Positions 10,301 through 45,507 of a DNA stretch of 64,000 nt are shown here, piece after piece. The DNA lies in assembly GCF_041379045.1 (NCBI RefSeq), contig NZ_CP166871.1:496001-560000 (forward strand), written 5' to 3'. The notes below the pieces were generated by a model, which was not told where the DNA came from, did not search any database, and worked only from the letters and a program-made list of their open reading frames with translations. A program made the position numbers and the translations under genes. This DNA comes from Thalassotalea ponticola (GTDB lineage Bacteria; Pseudomonadota; Gammaproteobacteria; Enterobacterales; Alteromonadaceae). The stretch's first letter is position 1. Every line of letters starts with the position of its first letter.

Positions 10301-10955
10301 AATGAAGTTCCATTAAATATATATTTATTGTTATGGGGGCTATTGGCTAATATGGATCAGAAATTCATAAAAGTAAAATATAAATTGATGAAAAAGTTGA
10401 AAAAGTTTGTTTTTTATTGTTTTCTTACAGCGCTTTTACCCCTTTAGCCCAGAAAATATACAGTTTTGCTACATGACGCAGACTTTAAATGTTTTTTCAA
10501 ATTTTTTCTAATTTGTTATTGGGGGGGCCAATAGATTTTCATTTAAGTAGGGTATCAGTATCATTTACACCTAAATTCAAACTCACTCTTAATACTACAG
10601 TCCTACGCTACAGACACATACTACAGATATGCGCTAAAGGCGTATGCTGCAAGCGTACTATACAGGCATAGTTTATAGGTATAGTAGCAACGCCAATGGG
10701 CTTGCATTATTCGTGCACTATTTGTGAACGACCATAGAGGGCTGTTACCTCTGGTTCTATTGCTATGCATGTAGCACTCATTGCCGTCTGAGCTTTTAGG
10801 TGCTTGGCTGTTTAGGTACTTGGCTGTTTAGGTACTTGGCAATGAGTGTGTTTATACAAAACTATTTTGCGAGTTGGGTATACCGGTTGATCAAAAGTTT
10901 AATTAAAACGTTTAATTAACATGTTGAGTTAAAACGCTGGGTTATAAACCCTTAG
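10301..10955. other. Non-coding region between pilA and nadC
   Basis: These 655 bases carry no convincing gene. They hold the pilA upstream region (very AT-rich from 10301 to 10440), a G7 run at 10521-10527, a stretch with repeated CTACAG and TATAG words (about 10594-10690), and a 16-base tandem repeat at 10795-10840. The 60-codon open frame on the plus strand at 10489 has no ribosome-binding site and no protein-like features. Confidence 0.7.
10795..10840. repeat. 16-base tandem repeat, about 2.9 copies
   Basis: Three consecutive units read TTTAGGTGCTTGGCTG, TTTAGGTACTTGGCTG and TTTAGGTACTTGGC. Only one base differs between the first and second units. The array lies in the pilA-nadC intergenic region. 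Confidence 0.9.
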
Positions 10956-11882
<927 letters not shown>

Positions 11883-11977
11883 TTAATAAAGTGTTTGTAG
11901 CGACTATCTGTGCTTTTGCTAACTCTTATCGCCTAGTACGGCATTGGCTGTTTTTTATTTATCGTGTTTGCAGCTCT

Positions 11978-12040
11978 AGCGTCTTATCGCTTGCGGCTAA
12001 CAGCTTTTCGCTTACAGCTTATCGCCTTACAGCCTTACTG
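11978..12040. repeat. Degenerate CTTACAGCTTA-type intergenic repeat, copy 3
   Basis: Units such as CGCTTACAGCTTATCGCCTTACAG resemble those behind pilD and pilB. It abuts the stop of the minus-strand retropepsin-like gene and slightly overlaps its last codons. Confidence 0.75.
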
Positions 12041-12550
12041 CGTCAGGGTTAAATATTTACCACTTTGACTGAAGTCTAGCTGTTTAAGTGCACTCATACC
12101 CAGTAAAATTTCGTTTGTTTTCATCCCTGGGTTTATGTTTGCGGCGACATTATACAAAATAATGTTACCAATACTCAATTCGGCAATTTCGGTTTGCTGC
12201 ACTTGGACACTGCCATTGGCGGTTTGCACGTAATGGTAGCCCATGATAGGAAGATTTAAATTGTCGGCAAGACTGGCGGGAATCGATACGTTAGTGGCAC
12301 CGGTATCGAGCAAAAACACCACGTCGCTACCGTTAATAGAGCCGTTGGTAAGGTAGTGGCCAAAGCGATTGCGTTCGAGCGTAACCTCGCTGCGACCGTC
12401 TTGGGTTAAATTCATTTGTGGTTGCTGATTGGGGTTGTGTTGCTTTTGCAATACCCCTTGAAAAAACCAAAACATCAGCACAAAAAACAGGCCCCATGCA
12501 ATCCACATCATGGCTTTGCCCATTTTTTTATTGTCATCAAATTCGCTCAT
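12035..12550 (-). CDS. Retropepsin-like aspartic protease family protein (TIGR02281 type)
   Basis: The protein has 171 residues with one N-terminal membrane helix (about 12-30), which would place the rest in the periplasm. The C-terminal domain (about 60-171) is a single retropepsin-like unit with the active-site motif LLDTGATNVSIP near residues 80-91 and the later ILLGMSALKQLDF segment typical of clan AA proteases. Such single-domain proteins would need to dimerise to be active. The substrate is unknown. It is divergent from ampD, with about 50 bases between the start codons. Confidence 0.85.
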   Translation of the reverse strand: MSEFDDNKKMGKAMMWIAWGLFFVLMFWFFQGVLQKQHNPNQQPQMNLTQDGRSEVTLERNRFGHYLTNGSINGSDVVFLLDTGATNVSIPASLADNLNLPIMGYHYVQTANGSVQVQQTEIAELSIGNIILYNVAANINPGMKTNEILLGMSALKQLDFSQSGKYLTLTQ

Positions 12551-30419: not shown

Positions 30420-31058
30420 ATGAAAATAATCATATTACACGGATTGTTTATGAACAAAGTGATCATGGCTCCTCTCGCTCGGCGTTTAGAGCAACGAGGC
30501 TACAGCGTTGACAATATTTCTTACCCAAGCACTCGCGCGGATAAAAACGCGTTGTTCGACGATATCGACGCGCGCGTCGGTGAGGGGCCGACAGTGCTTC
30601 TGGGCCATTCTCTCGGCGGTTTAGTCGCCACCGAATACCTATTTGAACGCAAAGTGTCAGTTAACCGTATTCCGTTGGTGATCACCTTGGGCACACCGCA
30701 TCAAGGAGCACAAATCGCCGAGGATATGAAAAAGGTTAACATTCAACGGTTATTGGGCTCGTCGGTGCAATTTGGCCTACTGCCTAAACACTTTGAAAAA
30801 GCCTGGCCATTGCCGCAAAAGTTGGTGTCTATAGCCGGTAGTCTCAATATTGGTGCTCGGCCTTTGCTCGATCGGGTATGGCGCGATGAAATCGAGCAAT
30901 CAGATGGAACGGTGAGCATCAATGAAACCCGTATTCCCGGTATGACTGAGCACATTATTGTTAAGCAAACACATACTGCTATGGTGTATTCAAAAGACGT
31001 GGTTAATCTAATTGACGATATGTGTCAGAAATACGTGACGCAGCAAGAGCCATTATAA
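30420..31058 (+). CDS. Alpha/beta hydrolase, lipase-like
   Basis: This cytoplasmic serine hydrolase has 212 residues. The fold begins MKIIILHGLFMNK with the oxyanion-loop HG; the nucleophile elbow is LLGHSLGGLVA (Ser near residue 66); later acid and His candidates include the DG in QSDGTVSINE and the H of KQTHTAMVY. The last motif resembles PGAP1/lipase-type esterases. Three in-frame ATGs occur within 12 bases; the third (30420) is best placed behind GAGG. Substrate unknown. Confidence 0.88.
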   Translation: MKIIILHGLFMNKVIMAPLARRLEQRGYSVDNISYPSTRADKNALFDDIDARVGEGPTVLLGHSLGGLVATEYLFERKVSVNRIPLVITLGTPHQGAQIAEDMKKVNIQRLLGSSVQFGLLPKHFEKAWPLPQKLVSIAGSLNIGARPLLDRVWRDEIEQSDGTVSINETRIPGMTEHIIVKQTHTAMVYSKDVVNLIDDMCQKYVTQQEPL

Positions 31059-31362
31059 CGTTCAACCACAAGTAACGGTGAGTTAATCGCTGTCGATATC
31101 GGCAGTAGAATTCAATACAGCGTAATAACCTTACTTGCTAATTCTCTTATATTGCAGGCTTACACTATTGCAGGCTTACACTCGCCATATTCACCACTTG
31201 GCAACCAGTGTATGTACCGTTAGACAGCTTGTTATTTTCCGATAATCTTAACTCACATCTCAGCTGCCCCTTAGCTAAGCCCTTATTCCAAGTTTGGATT
31301 AATTAAGTGGTTAATTGATCACAACGTATATCACCTTCGCATTAACTATTAAATTTTAATCA
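31059..31362. other. Non-coding spacer up to the transposon left end
   Basis: No gene is visible. It contains a 16-base direct repeat at 31150-31181 and ends in ATCA directly before the element. In the uninserted ancestor this spacer would have joined the glnK upstream region at 45000. Confidence 0.7.
31150..31181. repeat. Perfect 16-base tandem duplication
   Basis: Two adjacent identical copies of TATTGCAGGCTTACAC. The unit length equals that of the array at 10795, but the sequence is different. Confidence 0.92.
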
Positions 31363-31498
31363 TGATCATCGCCACTTAAATTGAGAATCTCAGGCAAGTT
31401 AATCTGAGACATTTCAGTGACTTTTCGACCAAATAAAAATTTTCTCTGCCAATTAACTTGAGATTTATTCATGATACTGCCTTCCAATTTGAGATTTA
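31363..31498 (+). repeat. Left end: terminal inverted repeat and TnsB-site-like repeats
   Basis: The terminal 26 bases match the right end at 25 positions (only base 18 differs). Behind it are at least three further copies of a (T)TAAnnTGAGAnnT word, at about 31398-31411, 31453-31466 and 31484-31497, as expected of an array of TnsB-binding sites in a Tn7-like end. ATCA at 31359-31362 is the putative target duplication. Confidence 0.9.
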
Positions 31499-31727
31499 TG
31501 TAATTTAAATTCGCCGATACGGAAAATATCAAATAGTTAGTATTTTTTAGGCTCGCAAAGGAAAATAAAAATTAATTATCTTAATTTATATAGTAGCGAC
31601 CTAGGAAAACTGCATTCGGAATATAATGCATCCACATAGCTAATTCACAAATAAATTAAGCTGCGGTATGCTTGGTAAACAATAATGAAATAGGGTCGTT
31701 ATTTTAAGACGAGAAAACTTTAGTATT

Positions 31728-32573
31728 ATGAGCTACGGAAAGGACGATTATTACCTGTGTGATGGAGTGTATGGTGCTCCTTGGACTTGGCCTGACGATG
31801 ACGAGTTCTCATTAGATGATGAGGAATTATCATCTAAGGAAAATACTGAAGTAGAAATTAATTTGAGAACTCAGTGGATGGAGTCACTTGATTCACCACG
31901 CTATTCATTGGATGATTATTTGAATGCTCTTTTCAAAGCGACTATTCACAAAGGACTTTACTTAGCAAGTTCGCGTTATTGTCGAGTAGAAAAAATACCT
32001 TCAGATTATGCCTTCGCAATATGTAAAAATTGTTCCATATCGGAATTGATAATATCAGACTTAAGCGGATATCGCTTGTTCCAGTCTATGGGAGATATTA
32101 AACGGCTAGATTTGTTTATTGAAGAATTAGTTAGGAAAAGGGATAAAATATCAGTTTATTTTAAAGTTTCCGAAATTCAGCTGTTTATTCATAGAGAGAT
32201 GCAAATAAAGCATGGGGAAAGGTCACATTTATCAATGGATAGAGAAATTATGAGGGTTTTGCTTTCCATTATGCGGTTGTATTTCTTAGTAAATGAAACT
32301 AGGGAAATGAGCTTCGGAGGTTTTATCGAGTTGATGAAAAATTATAATGAAAAAATAGGACAGGTAAAGTCATATTGTCCTGATTACGTTATCGACTCCG
32401 GTAGACAATACAATACTAACTGGAGCGCGAGACATCAGCATTCCCTGTTATATTATCTTCCAGAAGTTATGAGAATTTTTGTTAAAAATTTGATGAGGCA
32501 ACAGTTTTCGAGCTCTAAATCTGATGTAATTAAGGCGTTGCAAGACTCCGTAACGAAATACCATTTAACTTAA
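31728..32573 (+). CDS. Unknown protein coupled to the polymerase-like gene
   Basis: I do not recognise this 281-residue protein. It begins with an acidic, aromatic-rich stretch (DDYYLCDG, WTWPDDDEFSLDDEELS), followed by a mainly alpha-helical body with no membrane segment and no obvious catalytic motif. A Cys pair (CRVE, CKNC) lies near residues 85-100 and does not form a clear zinc site. Its TAA stop overlaps the ATG of the next gene (TAATG), so the two are translationally coupled and likely work together. It is the first gene inside the left transposon end. A terminal protein, primase-like or regulatory partner of the polymerase is possible but unsupported. Confidence 0.8.
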   Translation: MSYGKDDYYLCDGVYGAPWTWPDDDEFSLDDEELSSKENTEVEINLRTQWMESLDSPRYSLDDYLNALFKATIHKGLYLASSRYCRVEKIPSDYAFAICKNCSISELIISDLSGYRLFQSMGDIKRLDLFIEELVRKRDKISVYFKVSEIQLFIHREMQIKHGERSHLSMDREIMRVLLSIMRLYFLVNETREMSFGGFIELMKNYNEKIGQVKSYCPDYVIDSGRQYNTNWSARHQHSLLYYLPEVMRIFVKNLMRQQFSSSKSDVIKALQDSVTKYHLT

Positions 32574-34366
32574 TGAAAAGACTTGTTTGTTCCCGCTTCG
32601 ACTCTAACATTCCAAACGCGGCTAAAATAAAAAAGCACAAAGTCAATTTTACCAATCCCCGAGTGATAAAAGAGTCTAACTACTACTGTTTAGCAACTGA
32701 TGGAAATGAAGTTTTTAACGGTAAGAGAATGTCTCTTGATTCGTTTTTTCAGTGGTTCTCTGACAAAAATGAAACTTTACTTGTATTAACCGATAAAGAG
32801 GCTTCGCTTCTCGTACGGTGGGCAAATATTTTTGAAGTGAAATTAGTATCTTTTGAGAGTTCATTTCCAATATTTACAGATATTAGATTCAATCCCAATT
32901 TGGAAAAGAGTTTTGTTTTATTAGAAAAACATTTGTCATATATAAAACGGATTGGCTTAAATTCGAACAGAATAAATTCAGAACTGATAATGAAATCAGG
33001 GAAAACCATAAAGCGAAAGTTCGGTAATAAAACTAATTATGATGTGATGTTTGCACATGCTTATCTTCCACCATATCAAGAAGTTTTTAGATTTTGTGAA
33101 TTTAGAAAAGATAGGATGATAATCGCGCTAGATTTTAATTCTATGTTTGCTAGTTGCATGGAGGGCCAATATTTAGACCCAGAAGAAGTGTATTATGAGC
33201 AAGTACATTCAAGTAGTGCTGAAAAATCATACCCCCCTGGGCTATATCATGTTGTGCTTAAAAGACCTCGCTCTGCATTCTTTGCCGAATATCACCCGTT
33301 TAAATATACGCAATTAGGGCTGTCTCTTCATTTTGATACAGAACAAAGTTGTGAAATTGAGACTCAACTTTTTCATTTCGAGCTAGAGGTTTTTAAAGAA
33401 TATTTTGAAGAGGTTTATATCTTTTCAGTTTTGAGATCATCAAGACTAAAAGGACACCCGCTATATACAAAATCTCGACGACTTTATAGTCTTCGTATGA
33501 AGGCAAAAAGAAAGAATAAACTAGAATTGGAAAAGCTTTATAAACTTCAGTTGGCAATGTTACATAGCGTAACTAACAAAAAGTCGTATAAGAAAGTTGT
33601 GTGCGAATCTTATTCTGAATTACTGAATCTATTAAATGTTGAGTATTCACTGACGCTGCACAAAGAACAACCTCTCCTTATGAACTCATCTCCGTTATTG
33701 AAAAAGATCGGATTAAAAAATAACAATGATAAATTAGTAGGCTCATTCATTGACTTAAATAGTTCAGAGACCATATTTAGTTTCTCCAGTCAGGTGATAG
33801 CTAAATCTAGATTAAAGGTTTTTCAAACTTTAGTAGAACTTAAAAAGTTTAACGATCTGGATATATGTTATATCAACACAGACTCAATTCACATCTCTAT
33901 ACCTAGGGATTCATATCACTGCTTTATGGAACGTTATGCTGAAATGTTAGGGGATGATATTGGTAAGTTGAAAGTGCAGGCTATGGCGGGTCAGGCTATT
34001 TGGTTTGATATAGGGCATTATTTTCTTCTAGAAAATGCCAATATCGTAAAGTGGGCTAATTCGGGCTTAAATCATAAAGGGAATAAAAACCCTCATTTAG
34101 GGTTTAGAGAGAGATATCGAAAGCTGAAAGTTAATAATCGCTCAACGATATTGAAAGAAAAAGTAACTTTTTTATCGAGTCTATCGTATAAAAAAAACCT
34201 CCCGAAGAATATAGATATGAATCTGGATAAAATTGATTATCAAAGATTCAAAATAAGTGAGATTGCGAGCTTTGATCAAGCGTCTCTGCGTATAATGAAG
34301 GAGAGGCAAAAATCCTTTGCCGTAAAGAAGCAATATTTTGACTTTTTACGAGCTCATTACGTGTAG
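32573..34366 (+). CDS. Divergent family-B DNA polymerase-like protein (DNA_pol_B_2 type)
   Basis: The 597-residue protein carries palm motifs of protein-primed family-B polymerases. Motif A is IALDFNSMFASCM (Asp187), compare DxNSLYP. Motif C is CYINTDSIHIS (433-438), compare YxDTDS: the first Asp is Asn435 and the second, Asp437, is kept. The motif B region KLQLAMLHSVTNKK (about 324-337) is strongly degenerate against KxxxNSxYGK. A later HYFLLENANIVKWANSG segment (about 482-498) resembles the KxY/thumb region. The N-terminal 180 residues lack recognisable exonuclease motifs. It could be an active specialised polymerase or one whose fold was co-opted. It is coupled to the preceding gene, and a hairpin array follows at once. 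Confidence 0.75.
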   Translation: MKRLVCSRFDSNIPNAAKIKKHKVNFTNPRVIKESNYYCLATDGNEVFNGKRMSLDSFFQWFSDKNETLLVLTDKEASLLVRWANIFEVKLVSFESSFPIFTDIRFNPNLEKSFVLLEKHLSYIKRIGLNSNRINSELIMKSGKTIKRKFGNKTNYDVMFAHAYLPPYQEVFRFCEFRKDRMIIALDFNSMFASCMEGQYLDPEEVYYEQVHSSSAEKSYPPGLYHVVLKRPRSAFFAEYHPFKYTQLGLSLHFDTEQSCEIETQLFHFELEVFKEYFEEVYIFSVLRSSRLKGHPLYTKSRRLYSLRMKAKRKNKLELEKLYKLQLAMLHSVTNKKSYKKVVCESYSELLNLLNVEYSLTLHKEQPLLMNSSPLLKKIGLKNNNDKLVGSFIDLNSSETIFSFSSQVIAKSRLKVFQTLVELKKFNDLDICYINTDSIHISIPRDSYHCFMERYAEMLGDDIGKLKVQAMAGQAIWFDIGHYFLLENANIVKWANSGLNHKGNKNPHLGFRERYRKLKVNNRSTILKEKVTFLSSLSYKKNLPKNIDMNLDKIDYQRFKISEIASFDQASLRIMKERQKSFAVKKQYFDFLRAHYV

Positions 34367-34597: not shown

Positions 34598-35872
34598 TTA
34601 AATATTTAAGTCCAGTTGATAAATATTTGCACTTGCTTTAACTCGTTTATTACTTGGCGATGTGTGAACCACACTTTTTATGCTAGGGTTAATTATCGAT
34701 AAGGGCTTATGTTTTAAGCCTAAACGCAAATCATTTGAAAGTTTTTTTAAATCTTTTGGATTGCAATAAACTGAAGATATGAGGTCTGATCCTGCCTGAA
34801 AGCCGATAATAAGTGTTTTGTCTTTGATGGCTAAAATGATATCGCTCAAGTCAATATTTCCACGATAAAGGACTTCAGTCATACCTGAGAGGCATTTCAT
34901 TTTATTTGTCTTGTTGTATCCAGTTAGTAACTTAATTACAGGTGATACATCTACAGGCGTATTATGATGAAGGTTGGTTCCTCTCTTTGTTTTTACTAGC
35001 CCATGATCTAATAGCAATTGCATTTTATGTCTAGGGAGGGCTAATAACTCACAAGCTACTTCGTTATGTACATACAATGGAAGTATCTCGTTACTGAAGT
35101 TTATTCGAGCAATTTTATCGTGTTGCTGAATAACGCAGCTTGCAGGCCAAATGTTTTTTAGATTTTTAAATAAGATATTTAATGATGTTCCAGCAAAGTT
35201 TAGGGGATACAAATCAGAAAATTTATTGATAGATTTATAAACCAATTCCCTAGCAAAATTAAGATTGTTTAGAAGCTCATATCCATCTTTTACTCTTTCT
35301 TGGTAGTTAGGTATTGAAGCAAACCTATTTCGTTTTACAAACGGCTCATCTAGGTTATTTATAAAATAAGAAATCAAAAGGCAGTCAGCAACTTGGCTCT
35401 CACTTAAAGAGGTAAAACTATGCGAGCGTAATGGAGTCAACTCCAATCCACACAGTGGAGAAGAGCACCTGCCTTTCAGCAATGTTATATCCCAGGTTAG
35501 GGGGTGATTACAGCTACCACACTTGTCAATTAGCGGTTCACGATGCTCAGAGCATTGGTGAGTGAAAGGGCATTGAACTTCAGAATTTATATACCCCTTT
35601 TCATGAATACAGCGTAAACAAATTTTCGGCTCTATTTGTGTGGCTAGTTCAAAAAGAGGGGTTTTTATGTAGGCTCGCTTGAGCTTATGTGATTTTGCGT
35701 AAAATTGGATATCCGACGACAAGGAAACTTCATGCCCGCGCACTATTCTATTTATTAATGACTTAGGTATCATTCTATCTATATAAGTAAAGCCATTTCG
35801 CATCGCCAATCGGAGAGCATATCCAATGTTGCTTTCATCGGGGTACATCGTGGGAATAACTGCAAGTTGCAT
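34598..35872 (-). CDS. tniQ: Target-selection protein TniQ/TnsD family
   Basis: TniQ proteins recognise the target and recruit the TnsC AAA+ regulator. This 424-residue protein has the TniQ N-terminal domain with its zinc-ligand array: CLRC (85-88), CPFTHQCSEH (101-110), CGSC (118-121) and two later Cys (136, 141). The C-terminal half, about 200-424, is helical and poorly conserved. At 424 residues it is shorter than Tn7 TnsD (508) and close in size to other single-TniQ elements. It is the last gene of the tnsA-B-C-tniQ operon, 9 bases after tnsC. With no cas genes or tnsE, it is the only visible target selector. Confidence 0.93.
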   Translation of the reverse strand: MQLAVIPTMYPDESNIGYALRLAMRNGFTYIDRMIPKSLINRIVRGHEVSLSSDIQFYAKSHKLKRAYIKTPLFELATQIEPKICLRCIHEKGYINSEVQCPFTHQCSEHREPLIDKCGSCNHPLTWDITLLKGRCSSPLCGLELTPLRSHSFTSLSESQVADCLLISYFINNLDEPFVKRNRFASIPNYQERVKDGYELLNNLNFARELVYKSINKFSDLYPLNFAGTSLNILFKNLKNIWPASCVIQQHDKIARINFSNEILPLYVHNEVACELLALPRHKMQLLLDHGLVKTKRGTNLHHNTPVDVSPVIKLLTGYNKTNKMKCLSGMTEVLYRGNIDLSDIILAIKDKTLIIGFQAGSDLISSVYCNPKDLKKLSNDLRLGLKHKPLSIINPSIKSVVHTSPSNKRVKASANIYQLDLNI

Positions 35873-35881
35873 AAAAGGTGT

Positions 35882-36826
35882 CTAGTGGCCTGTTTGAAAA
35901 ATACGATTAACAAGGGTATTGACTTCACTATCAGGAAGGTCGTCTGAACAAAATGGGTTTAATTTGGCTTTTCCGTACATGGAGTAGTTCTCTTTCAACT
36001 TTGACAGTAGCACCGATTTATCTTTTATATCCGACATGTCTTCAAGTAAAAACAAGCTCTCTAGCGTACTGAAACTGCGTTCCATATAGGCGAGATATAA
36101 CCTATTGAGTAAAGGCCCATCTTTGTAATTTAAAAATGGAAAGCCTATTTTGTCGATAAACCAATTGATACATTCAAGCCAGTCGTCAGTTCGAGGCTCT
36201 ATTTTTTCTAACTTTACAGAGCGCATCATTCTGCGGCTCAACTGCTCATTATCATCTACAGTTTTATCTGTTTTCCCAAAGGTTAGTAGTCTCATAGCCC
36301 GTTCACTACCAATAAACACGATTGAGGCTGGAAGCTCATCAAGCAAGCTACAAAAGTATTTGAGCGTATTGAGTGCTGTGACACCGTCGGTGTTGGGTAA
36401 AACTTGTTGTATTTCATCTAAAATAATAAGTTCAACACCCAGCTCTTTAACTAAGTGACGAAACTGTTCATCTAACTCTCCAGGCTCTGTCTTACCCTTT
36501 GGTGGCGTTGTTCCGAGTGCTTTGATTAAGAGCTTTAATATATCATCTATCTGCTTATTGGATTGTTTGAAGCGATATCTAAAAACAGGTCTAAACGTTT
36601 TTTCTCGAACTTTTCTTGGTGGAAATAGAGCCTCATATTGTTCAGCTAGAAATGATTTTCCCTCACCGGATTCCCCATATATGAGAACCCCTTTTTTATT
36701 TTTAGGCTGAGTATGCATTGCATGCACACGACATATTCTTTGCCAAGCCACTTCTAATGAATCATGTTTTACTAATGAGCTAGGAATTTTTATAAAAGGA
36801 TAGTTTGAATTATTTTTTATTACCAT
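35882..36826 (-). CDS. tnsC: AAA+ transposition regulator TnsC (TniB-like)
   Basis: TnsC is the ATPase that bridges target selector and transposase and imposes target immunity. Walker A is GESGEGKS (51-58) and Walker B is LIILDEIQQ (133-141), followed by a sensor-1-like segment SIVFIGSERA. At 314 residues it is far shorter than Tn7 TnsC (555) and close to TniB and to TnsC of the shorter Tn7-like elements. Its start overlaps the end of tnsB by 7 bases, so translation is coupled. Confidence 0.95.
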   Translation of the reverse strand: MVIKNNSNYPFIKIPSSLVKHDSLEVAWQRICRVHAMHTQPKNKKGVLIYGESGEGKSFLAEQYEALFPPRKVREKTFRPVFRYRFKQSNKQIDDILKLLIKALGTTPPKGKTEPGELDEQFRHLVKELGVELIILDEIQQVLPNTDGVTALNTLKYFCSLLDELPASIVFIGSERAMRLLTFGKTDKTVDDNEQLSRRMMRSVKLEKIEPRTDDWLECINWFIDKIGFPFLNYKDGPLLNRLYLAYMERSFSTLESLFLLEDMSDIKDKSVLLSKLKENYSMYGKAKLNPFCSDDLPDSEVNTLVNRIFQTGH

Positions 36827-38844
36827 CGTCGCGCTTTACCACTTGGTGTTTTAACTACTGAGTCTTTCGGTATCTTCGAACCTGACTCTTCTTGATGTTC
36901 AGTAATATCTAAGTTTGCATAAAATGCTTTTGAATCAGAAGGATTTGAGTTGTTTGAGTTGTTTATTCTTTCTGAAACAGTAAGCCCCTGACTGATGTTT
37001 TCCTCAAATGATGGAGCTTTAGGCCCGCTGGTTTTTTCACGGGTTTTCTGAGGGTAAAAACTTTCCACGTTTCCTTGGTAGTAGCCTGTAGGTGTATGTT
37101 TTTTGCCTTGGAAAATATCATAGCTCTTAGGCTTAAAACCTTTCAATTCATCAAAAGAAATGGGGCAAGGCATACTATCTAGATTGGCGTTAGCGGCTAA
37201 TATTTCGCGAGCTTGATTCGTCAAAGGATCAATAAAGCTAACCGTCACATAGCGAGCGTCGAATGGATCAAAGAACACTTCGACATCTGGATTCTCCCCA
37301 TTGTCAGAGTACGTAACCATCTCCTGATAGAGGGTTTTCAGCTCATCACTAAAAAAATTCTCGCCCAAAATATGAACACTTCCGCGAGCTTGTAACTTGT
37401 TACTTTGTTTATCTTTTAAAACATGAAATGCCTGAAGCATTTGATTATAAGGGGTGTGTGGTCTAGGAGTTCTTTTTATTGACTCATTCCACGCAACCAC
37501 CGGAACTAACTTTGCTTCCTCATGAAATTTGTGCGTATACTCTGTTAAAAAAATGTTAAGCAAGCGAAGAAAGTCACTAACCTTCACATCAGCATATTTT
37601 TCCATTTTTTTCTCTAGCTTTTCATTGTTTATATCTGTTCTCTTGCCTTTGTAACTGTTAAAGCCCACTGTTTTAAGACCTTTATCATCCTCAAGAATCA
37701 TTCCCTTGAAAAATGACTGCCGCAGGGTTTTGTTAAAAGATTCTACGAAGGGTTTTTTAACTGGCTGATTTGACGGCGTGTAAACGGGACTTATACCTAA
37801 TCGTTGACAGGCTTTCCAGATGGCTGCGTTGTTAAAACCAGCGCCATTGTCCATGACCAAGGTAAATGGCTTTCCTTTCGCGATTAAATTTTCATCAGAA
37901 AAATAACACTGTCTCAGAAGGTTTAGGACATTTTCTTTGTTTTCTGCTTTTCCATAATCGACAACGACAGCAATTGGGTATCGAGTCATACAATCGATTG
38001 CGGTATAGAGAGAAATTGTCTTTGTTGGTTTCAGGGTCTCATCATCAATGAGACACATATTCACATGAAGCCTATCGAGCTCTACTCGTTGCATGGCAAA
38101 GTACGTTCTGATGCTTCTTCGTAAAGTCAGTAATAATTGATTCTTGGATGCTGATGAAAGCCTCGGGTTATTTAATTTGTCGCCGACCTCTTTTAATGAT
38201 CCAAGTCTCCTATAAAAAGTTCTTTCACTCGCTAGCTTTATTTCGCTATCTATTTTTGCTTTTTCTTCAACTGCGCATTTGTAGGCTGCGTAATGAGCTC
38301 TCTTAATCTTTGAATCACTAGCAGACCAGACTGTCGATACGTGAGCCTGTATCTCGGCTTCGGTTTTTGCATTTAAACGAGATGCAGCAAATCTCCGTTT
38401 ACTCGCTAGGCTATCTGGATCAAATCCAGATATTACCCATGTTCGCCAATAACGCGCTATTGTTGTTTGCGCAGGATGCTTCTTGATCAAGGTCTCAGGG
38501 TGTCGTTTTTCAACTTCCTTAATCAATTCCTTGTACGTGTTGAGCGTCGTGGCTGCTAAACCTTGGCTAGTTACTAAATCTCTTAACGTGAGAATATATT
38601 TTAAGCGATCATCTCTATCTGCCTTTTGATATTCCGTGAGAGGTACGTGAGGTTTCTCTTCGAGCTTATGTATGTATTTTTGTTCATCAAGATAGTTTTC
38701 GAAATCTTGAGATGACAGCATTGTTTTTTGAGATTTATCTTCATCTTTTTCAAGAACATAATTGTATGCATCTGCAAAAATCAGTGTTTGAATTTCACCT
38801 TTTTGATCATAAAATTTCGAACCGATACCAATACCCGTTACCAT
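36820..38844 (-). CDS. tnsB: DDE transposase TnsB
   Basis: TnsB binds the transposon ends, cuts the 3' ends and joins them to the target. The 674-residue protein has N-terminal helix-turn-helix-type DNA-binding regions (about 80-220), an rve/integrase core with catalytic candidates Asp267/268 (CLIDDETL), Asp332 (VMDNGAGF) and Glu368 (PFVESFN), a DD(35)E spacing, a Mu-type beta-barrel, and a Ser/Pro/Lys-rich C-terminal tail (about 590-674) of the sort that contacts TnsC. It overlaps both tnsA and tnsC by 7 bases. The catalytic core looks intact. Confidence 0.96.
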   Translation of the reverse strand: MVTGIGIGSKFYDQKGEIQTLIFADAYNYVLEKDEDKSQKTMLSSQDFENYLDEQKYIHKLEEKPHVPLTEYQKADRDDRLKYILTLRDLVTSQGLAATTLNTYKELIKEVEKRHPETLIKKHPAQTTIARYWRTWVISGFDPDSLASKRRFAASRLNAKTEAEIQAHVSTVWSASDSKIKRAHYAAYKCAVEEKAKIDSEIKLASERTFYRRLGSLKEVGDKLNNPRLSSASKNQLLLTLRRSIRTYFAMQRVELDRLHVNMCLIDDETLKPTKTISLYTAIDCMTRYPIAVVVDYGKAENKENVLNLLRQCYFSDENLIAKGKPFTLVMDNGAGFNNAAIWKACQRLGISPVYTPSNQPVKKPFVESFNKTLRQSFFKGMILEDDKGLKTVGFNSYKGKRTDINNEKLEKKMEKYADVKVSDFLRLLNIFLTEYTHKFHEEAKLVPVVAWNESIKRTPRPHTPYNQMLQAFHVLKDKQSNKLQARGSVHILGENFFSDELKTLYQEMVTYSDNGENPDVEVFFDPFDARYVTVSFIDPLTNQAREILAANANLDSMPCPISFDELKGFKPKSYDIFQGKKHTPTGYYQGNVESFYPQKTREKTSGPKAPSFEENISQGLTVSERINNSNNSNPSDSKAFYANLDITEHQEESGSKIPKDSVVKTPSGKARRW

Positions 38845-39458
38845 GTTTTTACCCTTGTAAGTAGGGTATCGCCCTCCAACAAGGACGATATGTCGAATTG
38901 GTAAAATCCACTTGATAACAAATAATATGCTTCTTCAACGCTTGAGTTAGAAATTTCACTTAGTGATTCAATTAAATCATTAAATGTGGTGAGTTCTGCA
39001 AAGTCACAATCATCGATTGAGAAGGATAATTCTAGAGACTTGCATGAAGCGATTAATTGATAATTAACTCTGACTATAGGTGACAAACCAACTTCAGTTA
39101 CTATGCGTATTTCGGGTTCCCCGAGCGACTGTGAATAGTCAGAAAATTTCTGAATAGTAGCCTGATATTTATCATCAACTTTAGTCGAACTATGCACTTC
39201 AATATATTCAGAACTGCCATTAATATATTCAACGAGAAAATCAGGTGTTTTTGCTGAGATTTTTTCGAGTAATGGATTCTCAATGTGCATCGTCTCAACT
39301 TGGCTAGCGAATGAGGAAATTTGAGGGTCGCACTCAAAAATACATGCATAGCAGTATTCGAGAAAAGACTCTACCTTGATTGTTGTACCCGCCTTTTTTG
39401 AGTAAAAGCGAAATATATGTCGGCCACGATGCTTATTTGCATTGTACTTCACATTCAT
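38838..39458 (-). CDS. tnsA: Endonuclease TnsA (5'-strand cleavage)
   Basis: TnsA cuts the 5' ends of the element so that Tn7 relatives move by cut and paste. The 206-residue protein keeps the nuclease landmarks: Glu34 in ESFLE, Asp73 in TPDFLVEY, and the following strand YIEVHSS. In Tn7 the third site is Q-V-K (Lys132); here it is E-V-H (His89), so the canonical Lys appears replaced. The C-terminal part is a helical domain for TnsB/TnsC contact. It begins the minus-strand tns operon; the start is preceded by the TAGGTAGG ribosome-binding site. The 220 bases upstream are a divergent promoter region. Confidence 0.9.
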   Translation of the reverse strand: MNVKYNANKHRGRHIFRFYSKKAGTTIKVESFLEYCYACIFECDPQISSFASQVETMHIENPLLEKISAKTPDFLVEYINGSSEYIEVHSSTKVDDKYQATIQKFSDYSQSLGEPEIRIVTEVGLSPIVRVNYQLIASCKSLELSFSIDDCDFAELTTFNDLIESLSEISNSSVEEAYYLLSSGFYQFDISSLLEGDTLLTRVKTW

Positions 39459-39494
39459 TGTGCCTACCTAGAACAGCGTTAAATTCAACTTTTA

Positions 39495-39516
39495 GAGTGC
39501 TCGATTTGAGCCACTC
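39495..39516. promoter_or_regulatory. Inverted repeat in the tnsA / HTH-gene divergent promoter
   Basis: GAGTGCTC (39495-39502) and GAGCCACTC (39508-39516) form a nearly perfect dyad with one bulged base, 37 bases upstream of tnsA. It is a plausible operator for transposase expression; the regulator is unknown. Confidence 0.4.
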
Positions 39517-39678
39517 GAATTATGGCTGTATTAAAGACTGTCAGAGCAGAAAAAAACACAGAACCATTTGCGCTTTTTAAATTAAAGATTTTATATTGCT
39601 TTAATGGTGCTTTTTATCTAGCTTTAGGGCTGTTTCTTTAATTGTTTTTTTTAATGTCGATTGGGTTTTGGGGGTGTT

Positions 39679-40074
39679 TTGGTTAAGTACAAGTATTCAT
39701 CTGAAAAGATTTTTGAGGTTTTAAGTGAACTCGAAGAAGCGGGGGGAGGAAATTCTGAGTTTTATAGAAAACACAACGTGAATAGCACTACGGTCTATGA
39801 ATGGCGTAAAAAGTTTGCTCAGTTAAGTGTTGAAAGCATTAAACACTTGCGCCGTGTAGAAGCTGAAAATATTAAGCTGCTCAATGAGTGCGAAAAGTTG
39901 ATCAGTCAAAGAAATGCTGCTGTAGAGTTTATTAAAAATCAATATCCATCGGACAAAGAACGCTGCGCTTTTGCTAGTGAGTTAGTTAAGAAGGGCATTA
40001 TAGGGCCAACGGATGTCTGCGACTTATTTACCATAAAATTGAATGGTTTTCGTTATGAGCCTAAAAAGCGATAA
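39679..40074 (+). CDS. IS3 OrfA-like helix-turn-helix protein without a DDE domain
   Basis: The 131-residue product starts KYKYSSEKIFEVLSELEEAG and contains an IS3/IS911 OrfA-type HTH (FYRKHNVNSTTVYEWRKKFA) and a leucine-zipper-like coil (about 55-85). It continues into a second HTH-like segment (CAFASELVKKGIIGPTDVC) that resembles the beginning of IS3 OrfB. It then stops, with no integrase core, so it is either an IS remnant or a domesticated DNA-binding protein. It is divergent from tnsA, where a transposon regulator would sit. The start is a TTG behind TTGGGGG; an in-frame TTG at 39661 would add six residues. Confidence 0.7.
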   Translation: MVKYKYSSEKIFEVLSELEEAGGGNSEFYRKHNVNSTTVYEWRKKFAQLSVESIKHLRRVEAENIKLLNECEKLISQRNAAVEFIKNQYPSDKERCAFASELVKKGIIGPTDVCDLFTIKLNGFRYEPKKR

Positions 40075-40686
40075 CACTGAGTTTTGACGTTGACTGTCTA
40101 AAGAAGGTTTATTCACATAGTTTTGCATCAAAACATCTTGTGAACATTTTTATTGGAATTACGATAACTATTTTGAGCATTAAAATGAATTGGACATTAA
40201 ATTGATGGTATAGAGAAGACTTAATGCAACATAACGTGATATAGCCTAAATAACGCTTATATGTAGTAGCTCATATCTAATCTGACACTTGTCATTGACA
40301 GGGTTTAGGCTTAATCTGACAGACTGCAATGTCGATAAACGGACGGTCACAGTCATTTACTGCAATAGGCTCAAATCTGAATAGCTGACGTTGAGCGGGT
40401 ACTGCTGAGCTAGGTCATTTATGCCCCAAAACGAGTTAGCGCTAATACTCCATTTTAGGCTGAAGACTATCAAAAACAATTAAACTGATCCTGTTGTTCA
40501 AAGTAAGATTTTTGAAGAAACAAGCTCAACGAGTGTATTGCAGAATAACTACTTTTTGAACTGTTATTTAACAGGATGGAATGAATTAATAATTAGTGTT
40601 GTGACATCAATGACATAGTGTTTTTTATTCGTTATATTTATCTCAATAAAAAATATATGACAAAAAAGATTATAAAGGGAATTTGT
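40075..40686. other. Non-coding cargo region with AATCTGACA words
   Basis: About 610 bases without a convincing gene. AATCTGACA occurs twice and AATCTGAAT once within roughly 100 bases (about 40280-40385); the TAATCTGA core also occurs in the left transposon end. Near 40428 the words GTTAGC and GCTAATACTCC resemble the tail of the attC-like site at 44111. These suggest leftovers of older insertions or a lost cassette. Confidence 0.5.
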
Positions 40687-42243
40687 ATGAAAACTATTTT
40701 ACCATTAACCATAGGGATCAGCATTCTATTAATAGGTTGTAATTCCACACTAATTTATCGAAAAGTTTCTGAATCAGAAATACCTGAATATAAATCCAAA
40801 TTATCCTTAAATGAATTAATACAATACAAATCGAATTGGAAGCAGCCTGAGAATAAGAGCGAGCCTTGTGAAATGTTGATGGAAAGGTATGCACCTGTAT
40901 CAGTTGAGAGCCAGTCCTACTCAATCACTTGGGATGGTGAATGCGAGGGAGGCAAAGCATCAGGGCTTGGTAAAGTGGTCGCAAATCTAGGTGCTGTAGA
41001 GAGCTATGAAATAGGCTATGTAAAAGGTGGTATATCTGAACAATATTACTATAGCGGAGTAAAGGGAGCGAATATTGTCAAATATGGCCTCTACATAAGA
41101 GAAGGTAATAATTCTGTAAAAACACTAGATAATTATGCTGTTACTAAAAGTGATGGCGAGATAGATTATGTGTACCTATCAGTTGAAACTGATAAGACTA
41201 CAGGGATAGCACTAGGCTCAAATTATAGAAAATATAATGATGGAACGGCAACGCAAATAGGATATTTTGGCAATGGTTATTTCTTCGGAAATAGACAAAA
41301 TTTCGATACCAACTCGACTAACACGGCAAATCTATGGGGCTTCTTTAATACAAACACTGATAAGCCAGATAATTATGTTGTCCTTAAGAACAATCAAGGA
41401 ACTTGGCATCAGCTTTTTGAATATGGCTCAGCGAAAGAAACTGTTCAGTTACCAGAGAAGTATTTAAATACTTTAATGAGAGTAACAGAGGAAGGTGCTC
41501 AAGCTACTAATAAAGTTAGACAAAGTGGTCAGTATGCTTTAGCAATGAAAAAGAAATATGATGCGCAAACAGTGGCACCTACTAAAAATATACCAGATGA
41601 GCCTCAACCTGAGACTTCTAAAGGAATTGCAACTGGCACAGGTTTCTTTATTTCTAATGATGGTTATGTGCTTACCAATAGTCACGTAATAGAAGGTTCA
41701 TCAAACATTTCAATTATTCTAAATGGTAAATCTGTATCGGCTACTTTAGTTGATCATGACCCGAGCAATGATATCGCTTTGCTCAAAGTAGAGGAGGCGG
41801 TTGAAGGTTTGCCTATTGAGCTTAAGACGAAAACGAAGCAAGGGACTGAAATTGCTGTATTAGGCTATCCAAATATAGGGTTACAAGGTAACGAACAAAA
41901 AGCGACATTCGGCTATATTAATGCTAATTCAGGTATCCAAGGCGATACACGTTATTTTCAAATCAGTTCGCCTATCCAGCCCGGAAACTCTGGTAGCCCA
42001 ATGGTAACTAATCAAGGCGTAGTCATTGGCATTGCTTCTGCATCGTTAAATCAATCAGCAGCTATTAGAGCTACGGGAACATTGGCACAAAATGTAAATT
42101 ATGCCGTTAAAATAGCTTATGCACTGCCAATGCTGATAAATCATGGTGTGGACTTTATTGAACCAGCTAAGCAAAAATCCTTGGAAAAAACAGAGCTGAT
42201 AGAAAGTATCTCTAATAGTGTCGTGCTTGTAATTGCTGAATAA
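40687..42243 (+). CDS. Lipoprotein with trypsin-like (S1C/HtrA-type) protease domain
   Basis: The 518-residue protein begins MKTILPLTIGISILLIGC, a lipoprotein signal with the lipid-acceptor Cys18, so it is membrane-anchored outside the cytoplasm. The start at 40687 has AAAGGGA upstream; an open frame 69 bases longer would bury the signal. The N-terminal half includes a MORN-like stretch (ITWDGECEGGKASGLGKV). The C-terminal 180 residues are a chymotrypsin fold with the triad His333 (VLTNSHVI), Asp362 (NDIALLKV) and Ser435 (PGNSGSPM). No PDZ domain follows, unlike DegP. Substrate unknown; it may be a defence or envelope-stress factor carried as cargo. Confidence 0.85.
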   Translation: MKTILPLTIGISILLIGCNSTLIYRKVSESEIPEYKSKLSLNELIQYKSNWKQPENKSEPCEMLMERYAPVSVESQSYSITWDGECEGGKASGLGKVVANLGAVESYEIGYVKGGISEQYYYSGVKGANIVKYGLYIREGNNSVKTLDNYAVTKSDGEIDYVYLSVETDKTTGIALGSNYRKYNDGTATQIGYFGNGYFFGNRQNFDTNSTNTANLWGFFNTNTDKPDNYVVLKNNQGTWHQLFEYGSAKETVQLPEKYLNTLMRVTEEGAQATNKVRQSGQYALAMKKKYDAQTVAPTKNIPDEPQPETSKGIATGTGFFISNDGYVLTNSHVIEGSSNISIILNGKSVSATLVDHDPSNDIALLKVEEAVEGLPIELKTKTKQGTEIAVLGYPNIGLQGNEQKATFGYINANSGIQGDTRYFQISSPIQPGNSGSPMVTNQGVVIGIASASLNQSAAIRATGTLAQNVNYAVKIAYALPMLINHGVDFIEPAKQKSLEKTELIESISNSVVLVIAE

Positions 42244-42264
42244 ATGCCAGAGGAAAGCTGAATA

Positions 42265-42711
42265 ATGGATTTTTTTTCCGGTGTTAGTGTTATTGCTGCT
42301 GTGCTTTCCGCTGTCTCAGCTTTCTTTGCATGGAGAGTTACTAATAAAGCTTATAGATTTAATAAGAGTCTTGTTTTACATAAATCTGAACTAGAAATGA
42401 TAGATAGCCTGATCGAAAGCTTGATAAAACTTAAATCTGTCAGACAATTGAATCCTTTGGAAATGCCTGATGATGATTTCTTAAATACTGAAAAGCTCTT
42501 AGATGATATTAAGGTGAAAATTGATTCTATTTGTAATTCAAATAAAGAGGTCGAAACAGCCGTTAAAAGCTGGTCAAATAAACCAGAGGGGAGGATACTG
42601 ACTCTGATTAAGTCTAAAAATTCTTGGGAAGAAATTAAAGAGTCTGACCCTGATTTTTTAGATGGAATAATTGATTACTTTAAAATAATTAAAAAGGATT
42701 TGCTTAAGTAG
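42265..42711 (+). CDS. Small membrane-anchored protein of unknown function
   Basis: The 148-residue protein has one N-terminal hydrophobic helix (about 5-25) and a charged, helical cytoplasmic body with many Lys, Asp and Glu residues. I do not recognise a family. The start codon has GAGGAAAG in front and lies 21 bases after the lipoprotein protease stop, so the two are probably co-transcribed and may form a functional pair across the inner membrane. Confidence 0.75.
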   Translation: MDFFSGVSVIAAVLSAVSAFFAWRVTNKAYRFNKSLVLHKSELEMIDSLIESLIKLKSVRQLNPLEMPDDDFLNTEKLLDDIKVKIDSICNSNKEVETAVKSWSNKPEGRILTLIKSKNSWEEIKESDPDFLDGIIDYFKIIKKDLLK

Positions 42712-42930
42712 AAATGTTGATTTCAGATAACTCTACCCATATGAATTAGTCCATACAAGTCAGGGTTAATTTCTATGTATATAACGTGCGTAGTTCTAAC
42801 ACTTTCAGACCTCAGTTGTGAGATGCCTCTAAATTGTTTTTATCCAAAAATGTCTAGGTTAGTCAGGTCGATTCACATCTAGCAATAAGTTACTAAGTTT
42901 GATACTAGCGTGTAAATTAAAAAAGTGAGT

Positions 42931-42955
42931 AATAGCGCTAGAAAAACGCGCTATT
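42931..42955. other. Hairpin before the AlbA_2 gene
   Basis: A perfect 8-bp stem (AATAGCGC / GCGCTATT) with a 9-base loop and a short T run. It may terminate the preceding two-gene unit. The rest of 42712-42992 shows nothing further. Confidence 0.5.
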
Positions 42956-42992
42956 TTGCCCTATTAAATTGTTATGAAAAGTGGAGGGTTAA

Positions 42993-44114
42993 GTGTTAAA
43001 TCGTAATAAATTACTCCAGTTGTCATTATCTGAAATACCTTCAGAAACAGAGTACCTTGATTATAAACAACAAATTGATATTACCTCTGAATCTGGGCGA
43101 GCTAAATTAATTCGCTTAATTTGTGCAATGAATAATAGTAATCCCAATGCCCATTCATTTATTTTTGTTGGTATTGGCGATGATAAAACCATCATAGGAG
43201 TCCCCTTTTTAGATGATGCTAAATTTCAAAACGCAGTTAAAGGATTCATAAGTAATTGCCCCAAATTGTCATATGAAAATATAAATTTCAATGACACTGC
43301 TCCAGAAAAATTTATTGGTATTATTACGATATATCCTAGCGAAAACATAAGCTATGTAGCTAAGAATATTTGGAAGCTAAAAGAAGGAGATAAATTCATC
43401 CGTCGGGGTAGTACAACAGAGAAGTATGATGGGGATAATGAGCATTTGCATAAGAATATTCGAGTTAAGCAAAATCAATTCGAATCAAATCAACTAACTC
43501 AAAAAGCAACAGTTTCATTAGGTTCAACTTTAGATGCAGTCATATCTTTCTATAATGACACCGATAAAGAGTACAACCCTCGGCATTACGTCTTTAATGA
43601 TCAATGTGTTGTAGGTATTTCTACTTGGTATGAAGAAAACTCTGACTATCATTCAGAGGTGACAGTTTCCATTTTGAATGATCAAGTTACTTATTTTTGG
43701 TCAGCTTTGGATACTGTTAAAATCGAATGCTTAGAACAGCATATTTTAATTGAAGAGCAAGCTTTAGTATTCTGGCAAGGTGAACGAATATATTTTCCAT
43801 TTAAATTAACTAAACTAGATTTTTCAAAATTAGGTAGTTACAGCGTTCAAAAAAAATTACTACTTTCCATGCCTCATTTAACTACCGAAGAAATAGCTGA
43901 TTTTATTAATAGCATCCCTGGTAAGTTAAAGCGTGAAAAGGAGTACATTGAAATACTTCCATACGAACTATTATTAGCCGCTCTCAATGGTTCTCAAAAA
44001 GCAGTAAGTTTATTGCTTAATAAAAATAATGGTAATATAGATGGTGCATTAGCCGAATCATATAGCGAAGCAATACTCATATACAATGAGCTAAAGGATA
44101 GCGTACTGTTTTAA
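42993..44114 (+). CDS. AlbA_2 (Schlafen-type) domain protein
   Basis: The 373-residue protein has an N-terminal AlbA_2 domain (about 12-150): SETEYLDYKQQ at the start, a hydrophobic strand with SFIFVGIGDDKTIIGVP, then IGIITIYPS and the closing GDKFIRRGSTTEKYD. The C-terminal 220 residues are unassigned and lack the ATPase or winged-helix region common in longer AlbA_2 proteins. Related proteins occur in phage-defence islands; a role here is inference. The start is a GTG behind GGAGGG. An attC-like sequence begins at the stop codon, so it may have arrived as an integron cassette. Confidence 0.82.
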   Translation: MLNRNKLLQLSLSEIPSETEYLDYKQQIDITSESGRAKLIRLICAMNNSNPNAHSFIFVGIGDDKTIIGVPFLDDAKFQNAVKGFISNCPKLSYENINFNDTAPEKFIGIITIYPSENISYVAKNIWKLKEGDKFIRRGSTTEKYDGDNEHLHKNIRVKQNQFESNQLTQKATVSLGSTLDAVISFYNDTDKEYNPRHYVFNDQCVVGISTWYEENSDYHSEVTVSILNDQVTYFWSALDTVKIECLEQHILIEEQALVFWQGERIYFPFKLTKLDFSKLGSYSVQKKLLLSMPHLTTEEIADFINSIPGKLKREKEYIEILPYELLLAALNGSQKAVSLLLNKNNGNIDGALAESYSEAILIYNELKDSVLF

Positions 44115-44207
44115 TAATAAGTTGCTTAAACGGACAAAAAATAGCTGGCTTTTGCTCGTTCCTCGCTAATTTTAGACTACAATTATTTGTCGCTTGACGT
44201 GGCGTTA
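44111..44207 (+). repeat. Integron attC-like site, degenerate
   Basis: Outer arms TAATAAGTTGCTTAAACGG and CGCTTGACGTGGCGTTA pair imperfectly, then ACAAA(A) / (A)TTTGT pairs inward, and the centre has TGGCTTTTGCTCGTTCCTCG. This layout matches attC sites of Vibrio and Shewanella cassettes as I remember them. The outermost boxes are degenerate, so it is probably no longer efficient. No integrase gene is in the window. Confidence 0.65.
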
Positions 44208-44363
44208 ATACTCCAAAGCTACCGTATATTAGAAATAGCTAACGGGCCGAGTCTGGCACAACAGAGACGTTTAAAGTAAGAATTTTCCACCGAAGGAGTT
44301 GCCGCACAATGAAACTGATGGGATAACTCCTGATGCTCACACTATATAAAGTCTGAATAACCT

Positions 44364-44537
44364 TTATGCTCTTATCTCCGACTTGATCCGCTTGTTGATT
44401 TCAGAGCGATGCACGCTGACCGCTTCTGGTGCGTCGATTCCGATTTTCACCTGTTCCCCCTGGATTAAAATAATTTTGCAGGCTATGTTGTTGCCTATAT
44501 GGATAGTTTGTCCAATTTTTCGGATGAGAATAAGCAT
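44364..44537 (-). CDS. csrA: CsrA/RsmA family RNA-binding regulator, transposon-borne paralogue
   Basis: CsrA dimers bind GGA motifs in mRNA leaders and control translation. The 57-residue product begins MLILIRKIGQTIHIGN and contains the conserved IGIDAPEAVSVHRSEI segment with the RNA-contacting Arg near residue 44. The start is the ATG at 44537 behind AAAAGGA; the open frame extending 59 codons upstream is unrelated sequence. It lies 460 bases inside the right transposon end, on the opposite strand to the neighbouring AlbA_2 gene. A second, chromosomal csrA presumably exists outside the window, so this copy may tune element or host functions. Confidence 0.9.
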   Translation of the reverse strand: MLILIRKIGQTIHIGNNIACKIILIQGEQVKIGIDAPEAVSVHRSEINKRIKSEIRA

Positions 44538-44939
44538 GGTAAATCCTTTTAATTGAAATGATGGAAGAAAAGCAAGGTAACCGTGTCGAGAGCATGTCCT
44601 TGCCCATTCAATTAGAGTGTAGTTCAGTGTTTGACTTGTGACAAAGCCACATGACTTGCATATCGCTGACTTGGTTAATGCCTCATTAGCTAGCTTTGAT
44701 GAGATGAACGCCAACGTCTAATGAACAATTCCAGTCTATTTGCAATTCACTTCGTAAATACCTTTTATGGCGCAGTAAACTTCAAGCGCTCAAGGCAAGG
44801 TTCGGGAGTTGATTTGGCCGTTTAAGGCTTGAAGATAAATGCGGGTTTCGTGGTCAATTTAGTGCGGAATGTACAATTATCTCTAATAGAGCCGCTATTT
44901 TAGAGAACGAAGAAGATCTAACTTAGTTTTCATTTATAC
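44538..44939. other. Non-coding region between csrA and the right end
   Basis: About 400 bases without a gene. Two inverted repeats are present: CTTCAAGC (44780-44787) / GCTTGAAG (44827-44834), and TCTCTAA (44880-44886) / TTAGAGA (44900-44906). The remaining bases show nothing I can name. Confidence 0.5.
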
Positions 44940-44999
44940 GTGTACTTAATCTCAAAATCTCAGGTAGCCACGAATTCTCAACTTAAGTGGCGATGATCA
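44940..44999 (-). repeat. Right end: terminal inverted repeat and TnsB-site-like repeats
   Basis: Read inward on the minus strand it starts TGATCATCGCCACTTAA, then G, then TTGAGAAT, matching the left end except at base 18. A second pair of TGAGATTTTGAGATTAAG words follows at 44946-44963. ATCA at 45000-45003 repeats the bases flanking the left end. Confidence 0.9.
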
Positions 45000-45040
45000 A
45001 TCAAAACAAGCACAACAATTGGTCAACGAGCCAGTTCTGA

Positions 45041-45057
45041 TGCACTTATTTGGTGCG
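45041..45057. promoter_or_regulatory. NtrC-binding site upstream of glnK
   Basis: TGCACTTATTTGGTGCG matches the NtrC enhancer consensus TGCAC-N5-TGGTGCA except at the last base. It lies about 80 bases before the sigma-54 promoter and 42 bases outside the transposon. Confidence 0.8.
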
Positions 45058-45120
45058 CGAGTTTCCTTTGAATATCACCAGCTCATATTAAGCTATTGTT
45101 TTTTATTGTTTTTGTTCTTG

Positions 45121-45136
45121 TGGTACGCAAATTGAA
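45121..45136 (+). promoter_or_regulatory. Sigma-54 promoter of glnK-amtB
   Basis: TGGTACGCAAATTGAA fits TGGCACG-N4-TTGCW with one change in each conserved block and the correct GG to G spacing. It lies 33 bases before the glnK start. With the NtrC site it indicates induction under nitrogen limitation. Confidence 0.8.
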
Positions 45137-45144
45137 AGCAATAG

Positions 45145-45507
<363 letters not shown>

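Follow-up and report, generated by a model that had tools for sequence, protein, structure and literature searches.

The gene for a family-B DNA polymerase (PolB)-like protein in Thalassotalea ponticola is one half of a conserved, recurring gene pair, which is a new observation. In the window (the whole stretch of 64,000 nt that was analyzed), a Tn7-like element carries the pair as cargo (Table 1). The reading that we place first, although we hold it with slightly less than even confidence, is that this mobile two-gene module serves to defend the carrier from phages or from competing elements, with catalysis as proposed below. The pair may be an unrecognized bacterial defense system.

Table 1. 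Features of the gene pair and of the element that carries it (positions in the window)
Feature	Position	Strand	Remarks
Left terminal inverted repeat, TGATCATCGCCACTTAAATTGAGAATC	31363..31389	+	Agrees with 44973-44999, read as reverse complement, at 25 of 27 positions
Internal repeat of the terminal motif, CCAATTAACTTGAGA	31449..31463	+	Consensus with 0 mismatches; possible transposase-binding site (putative function)
Partner gene	31728..32573	+	ORF; 281 aa, predicted all-helical, no known family
Family-B DNA polymerase-like protein, divergent, protein-primed type	32573..34366	+	597 aa, ATG start
TniQ-like target selector	34598..35872	-	Pfam TniQ, E 4e-4, below gathering score; adjoins tnsC
TnsC/TniB-like AAA+ ATPase	35882..36826	-	Pfam TniB, E 4.4e-17
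TnsB-like DDE transposase	36820..38844	-	Pfam rve, E 1.8e-6, below gathering score
TnsA-like endonuclease	38838..39458	-	Pfam Tn7_TnsA-like_N, E 3e-6
Cargo: trypsin-like serine peptidase	40618..42243	+	Pfam Trypsin_2, E 3e-28
Cargo: Schlafen AlbA_2/DUF5929 protein	42993..44114	+	Pfam
Right terminal inverted repeat	44973..44999	-	Pairs with the left 27-bp end

The end of the partner open reading frame (ORF) overlaps the start of the polymerase gene by 1 nt; an earlier note on this DNA, made from the sequence, had missed this overlapping gene. The search for homologs and their neighborhoods that the note had suggested yielded 17 loci, with mobile carriers. A partner homolog adjoins the polymerase gene at 15 of them, upstream in 13 and downstream in two (G079 and L018), and the two genes overlap by 1 to 4 nt at several loci. 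The two partnerless loci are L014, a fragment with a truncated polymerase gene, and L013, with an N-terminally extended polymerase. In L013 (8696-10696), an N-terminal extension of about 437 residues is present in place of a separate partner; the partner profile detected no similarity in this extension.

The family is rare. Polymerase matches were found in 3 of 97 relatives of the genome, namely, the window itself, G079, and G069, the last match being weak and containing stops. Among 398 genomes of the phylum, the window's own was the single match, and among 246 genomes of the family, there were two, the window's own and a fragment in G512. Two plasmid records matched the polymerase, while no match was obtained in the phage records. 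Pattern scans revealed nine loci in genome contigs and six in viral contigs. L015 and L017 are identical over their shared stretch, and L016 agrees with them in ORF arrangement and match values but not fully in sequence; these three were counted as one locus, and the fragments in G069 and G512 were left out of the total. The G512 fragment (L022, G512:C1:603566-603730), which comes from a member of the same family, covers 55 residues (E 5e-12) and is probably a remnant. A related TnsB is encoded on another contig of G512.

All named hosts belong to the Pseudomonadota. In a tree of 13 full-length proteins, six gamma- and betaproteobacterial members formed one clade, and the alphaproteobacterial members formed another one of seven together with one MAG labelled betaproteobacterial; six of the ten inner branches were weakly supported. 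We take the rarity (1 of 398 phylum genomes) as a pattern of accessory genes, in which decay is usual if they carry a cost. In L010 (9764-11614), an in-frame stop precedes motif C of the polymerase shortly, and in L012 (9812-11648), the polymerase is split into two frames; the partner frame is open in both. For this one pair of loci, dN/dS was about 0.2 (0.20 for the partner and 0.23 for the polymerase, the latter in two pieces).

The frame of 597 residues and the numbering of Asp187 and Asp437 in the earlier note proved exact. Asp187 of motif A lies within IIALDFNSMFASCM, and motif C reads CYINTDSIH, with N435 and D437. In the family alignment, D187 is kept in 17 of 17 rows. The motif B Lys (K324) is kept in all 15 covering rows, as are N435 and D437, so that the first motif C Asp is replaced by Asn throughout. 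A complete NSxYG of motif B was found in no row; its remnants are the N in L018 only and the Y in L013 only. YxGG was not found in the alignment either. The phi29-type exonuclease motifs are DxE, NxxxFD, and YxxxD, and inspection of the 597-residue protein by eye revealed none of them. In these respects, the note had described the protein correctly: no exonuclease motifs were seen, motif B is degenerate, and motif C retains its second Asp.

A Foldseek search of the PDB returned phi29 polymerase as the clear best match (E 6.3e-13), with an alignment spanning 334 to 359 residues, compared to 190 to 249 for other rows. When viral models were searched by fold, most of the top rows were, judged by name, protein-primed kinds of polymerase, a mode that we assume for the viral enzymes so named. 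Comparison of the family profile with seven phage PolBs gave, with default settings, a probability of 29 and E 5.8e-4 over motif C alone; extension to full length gave a probability of 80.5 and E 1.3e-5, motif A as well as motif C then being aligned in register, and the global mode gave nothing. In the profile alignment, D187, K324, N435, and D437 fall on phi29 residues that we take to be D249, K383, D456, and D458, and the correspondence of Asp187 and Asp437 to catalytic Asp residues rests on this alignment together with the fold matches. Moreover, 137 residues separate the motif A Asp from the motif B Lys, compared to 134 in phi29 (whole-protein spacing). This spacing and the long phi29 alignment bear on the TPR1 and TPR2 insertions of protein-primed PolBs, which may be present here. 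With E values of up to 1 allowed, Pfam DNA_pol_B_2 matched 3 of 12 relatives, the best at 8.5e-5. Taken alone, the window protein matched no Pfam (including DNA_pol_B_2), PADLOC, or PHROG model. Because of the phi29 Foldseek and profile matches, the resemblance to PolB is more than chance. We conclude from the modeled fold that the 597-residue protein derives from the protein-primed (phi29-type) PolB lineage; the palm proposed in the note is thus borne out by the fold match, the profile alignment, and the conserved Asp residues. A defense-associated reverse transcriptase was rejected as its identity, since neither the polymerase nor the partner matched a reverse-transcriptase family in Pfam or PADLOC and the fold is that of a PolB.

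Protein-primed PolBs (phi29, PRD1 type, Cp-1; DNA_pol_B_2) have in common with the window protein the palm fold and, with its family, the motif A Asp, the second motif C Asp, and the motif B Lys. The similar spacing of motifs A and B and a small gene adjoining the polymerase gene are also shared. In contrast to them, the family lacks the exonuclease motifs, YxGG, and a complete NSxYG, has Asn for the first motif C Asp in every covering row, is without a detectable terminal protein, and is not bound to a linear genome. Judged by its sequence, the family is a new PolB variant and not a standard protein-primed PolB, since motif B departs from theirs. The piPolBs of pipolins likewise reside on bacterial mobile elements and lack the first motif C Asp. 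The enzyme of the Staphylococcus epidermidis plasmid pSE-12228-03, which we take to be a piPolB, has about 1,100 aa, with TTDG as motif C and KILVNSTYGK as motif B, whereas the present family lacks an intact NSTYGK and has Asn in place of the Thr. Since that enzyme has TTDG and an intact NSTYG, we regard the two as distinct.

PolB2 (B2/G2) differs from the present family in belonging to the main PolB group, and we know of no PolB2 that resides on mobile elements together with a helical partner. In PMC7544198, archaeal and bacterial PolB2 is described as having a degenerate exonuclease and, in motif C, one Asp only, as here, and a D(K/R) motif near the active site, and archaeal PolB2 is described as performing translesion work. 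The polymerase could be imagined as an exonuclease-less, low-fidelity translesion enzyme that tolerates damage and has spread on mobile elements, comparable to archaeal PolB2 or to umuDC on plasmids; the partner would then be its accessory subunit. PolB2/G2, which acts in translesion synthesis (PMC7544198 and PMC12926913), likewise lacks proofreading and the first Asp of motif C, which agrees with this, and so does the UmuC-type gene found in L011 at 0.7 kb from the module. However, L011 was the sole repair-polymerase neighborhood among the neighbors scanned, the fold is nearer to phi29 than to other PolBs, and 12 of 13 upstream stretches scanned were without an SOS-box-like site, with one loose match in L008. 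We consider a translesion role distinctly unlikely.

The AF2 model of the partner is all-helical (pLDDT 75.9). A comparison of 14 sequences, with the disrupted gene of L009 omitted, revealed E88, Y144, L179, L184, W232, and R235 as invariant (14 of 14). The partner had no Pfam, PADLOC, or PDB-sequence match, the PHROG search returned two weak rows only (E 0.03 and 0.05), the fold search gave no clear structural neighbor, and comparison with the sequence of the phi29 terminal protein gave no match. By location, the partner gene mostly occupies the position of the terminal-protein gene in phi29, Cp-1, and the PRD1-type phage PR3.

The altered motif B and first motif C Asp in the covering relatives could mean that the polymerase is a dead, structural protein. 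A dead PolB might act as a nucleic-acid-binding or sensor subunit, and the partner, in which charged and aromatic residues (E88, Y144, W232, and R235) are invariant, might be the effector, for example, an abortive-infection toxin. Yet Asp187, Asp437, and Lys324, which a dead enzyme would not need, are invariant in the covering rows, and we give this explanation little credence. The polymerase is probably catalytically active. Activity would be compatible with the missing first motif C Asp because of the precedent of piPolBs and PolB2; according to PMC7544198, piPolBs without this Asp polymerize efficiently.

The location of the polymerase inside a Tn7-like element, as claimed in the note, was confirmed by tns genes and by 27-bp inverted ends at 31363 and 44999, which delimit about 13.6 kb. 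When 31041-31730 was compared with 39441-45170 in inverted orientation, the pair of ends alone stood out: it scored 17/18, compared to up to 15/18 for unrelated 18-mers among the 40 matches listed. The left flank of the element is present in 12 of 15 genus genomes, including the window's own. In three of five related genomes (G009, G014, and G005), the left- and right-flank matches lie 190 to 250 nt apart; in the other two, the left flank alone was matched within the stretch compared. The flanking genes are a hydrolase gene on the left and PII/ammonium-transporter genes on the right. The sequence AATCA is a possible 5-bp target duplication, but to read it at the left and the right, a one-base difference between the ends has to be allowed. 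From the tns genes, the inverted ends, and the closely spaced flanks elsewhere, we conclude that the pair is cargo of this element. When nine window ORFs were compared to PADLOC, the peptidase alone matched (RT-Protease_XI, E 8e-20, protease part only). Near the right end of the element, the C-terminal half of a small ORF (44364-44714, minus strand) looks CsrA-like by eye. A casposon was rejected as the carrier: a DDE (rve) transposase is present, and a Pfam scan of eight ORFs of the element, a set from which three smaller ORFs were left out, found no Cas1.

The note had also suggested that the element encodes its own DNA synthesis step. This was not supported: the same pair occurs in lambda-like prophages, on a plasmid beside a Tyr recombinase, and in other recombinase-bearing regions, and in G001, where a related TnsB is encoded (32% identity), the polymerase had no match. 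Together, these findings make self-synthesis of the transposon unlikely. More generally, the polymerase might replicate or complete mobile elements, as in casposons, Polintons, or linear protein-capped plasmids. Protein-primed PolBs are the replicases of such elements, and the terminal-protein position of the partner gene would suit this role. However, the carriers in which the pair is found have other machinery, and the partner resembles neither the phi29 terminal protein in sequence nor any clear structural neighbor. We therefore rate a replicative role as very improbable.

The other carriers are diverse. In L015 to L017, the module is located shortly after lambda-type prophage tail genes, and on the other side in L017 are genes matching malY-malX-malI of Escherichia coli with about 75% identity, suggesting that the host is enterobacterium-like. 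In L019, the module also follows tail genes. In L005, it resides on a plasmid with a Tyr recombinase gene on one side, and in L009 and L018, recombinase genes are nearby. In L009 (7184-8812), an integrase-core (rve) transposase reads from upstream into the partner ORF as an in-frame fusion, so that the partner gene seems to have been hit by an insertion sequence. An additional piece (6773-7108) also matches the partner profile, which included the L009 row. Directly 3' of the module in this locus, a DUF6880 protein is encoded (10787-12523; Pfam E 8e-162).

Known defense families were detected within about 6 kb of the module in 4 of 15 relatives, among the matches listed. In L005, SspF, which is present in 1 of 200 phylum genomes, lies 0.65 kb from the module, on the side opposite to the Tyr recombinase. 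The SspG and SspH models each matched one member of the batch scanned, and by order and size, these are the next two genes of L005. PD-Lambda-5_A is found 1.4 kb from the module in L012, and a dCTPase family, the model of which also matched in 6 of 14 control genomes, 5 kb from it in L010. HmaA is located 6 kb from the module in L009 and is the sole copy in that genome at E values up to 1e-100. The batch comprised 102 neighbors from 15 relatives, chosen from more, and 25 of 102 matching families were listed; capP, Cas12-like rows, and mREase_II were also on this list, at the level of the batch and without an assigned gene. Of ten neighbors scanned singly, eight had no PADLOC model at E values up to 1e-15. 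The association of the module with defense genes is suggestive. As clues to the trigger, RNA families and SOS boxes were looked for, and neither was identified, apart from the loose SOS-box-like match in L008.

A role as a defense effector fits these neighborhoods best, and we judge the chances that the module serves defense to be even. We propose that this PolB, in which Asp187, Asp437, and Lys324 are kept while NSxYG, the motifs for proofreading, and the first of the two motif C Asp residues are lost, would continue nucleotide addition with little template guidance. In phi29, NSxYG and YxGG touch the template or the nascent pair, and the Lys touches the incoming nucleotide. Weakly templated addition is favored here because NSxYG and YxGG are lost while the Lys and Asp residues are kept. 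The primer would be protein or DNA, supplied or controlled by the helical partner. That the partner itself primes as a protein seems rather unlikely to us, but if so, its invariant Tyr144 would be the candidate priming residue; protein priming rests here on operon logic, as the partner has no phi29 terminal protein match or clear fold match. Synthesis would be triggered by infection and would yield a product or adduct that stops either the invader or the cell, in the manner of the Abi and DRT systems, which are the nearest working analogs.

In AbiK, DRT1, DRT9, and DRT10, a polymerase is the defense effector, as is proposed here. Those enzymes belong to the reverse-transcriptase family, whereas the window protein has a PolB fold, and AbiK primes in cis, whereas the separate partner here would act in trans. 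Abi polymerases synthesize DNA by protein priming, untemplated in some cases (PMC9508834), and DRTs are likewise described as making DNA by protein priming, some of them without a template. Taken in full, the reading would be that a family-B polymerase, having shed the parts for template reading and proofreading, is here for the first time the core of an antiviral system, with the helical partner as the primer and with untemplated DNA or DNA-protein adducts made upon infection; as a whole, we consider it unlikely. As part of this same joint reading, a phi29-lineage enzyme would, by analogy, converge on Abi/DRT chemistry from an unrelated polymerase family.

Whether or not it serves defense, this is a rare, sharply defined PolB family, with an NxDS motif C, no complete NSxYG, and a fixed partner, and none of the libraries searched (Pfam, PADLOC, and PHROG) has a model dedicated to it. 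To our knowledge, immune-effector DNA polymerases have so far come only from the reverse-transcriptase family. If the proposal is true, the family would provide a new enzyme without much of the usual motif B signature and a second polymerase lineage as an effector, and DNA synthesis as a weapon would have arisen more than once.
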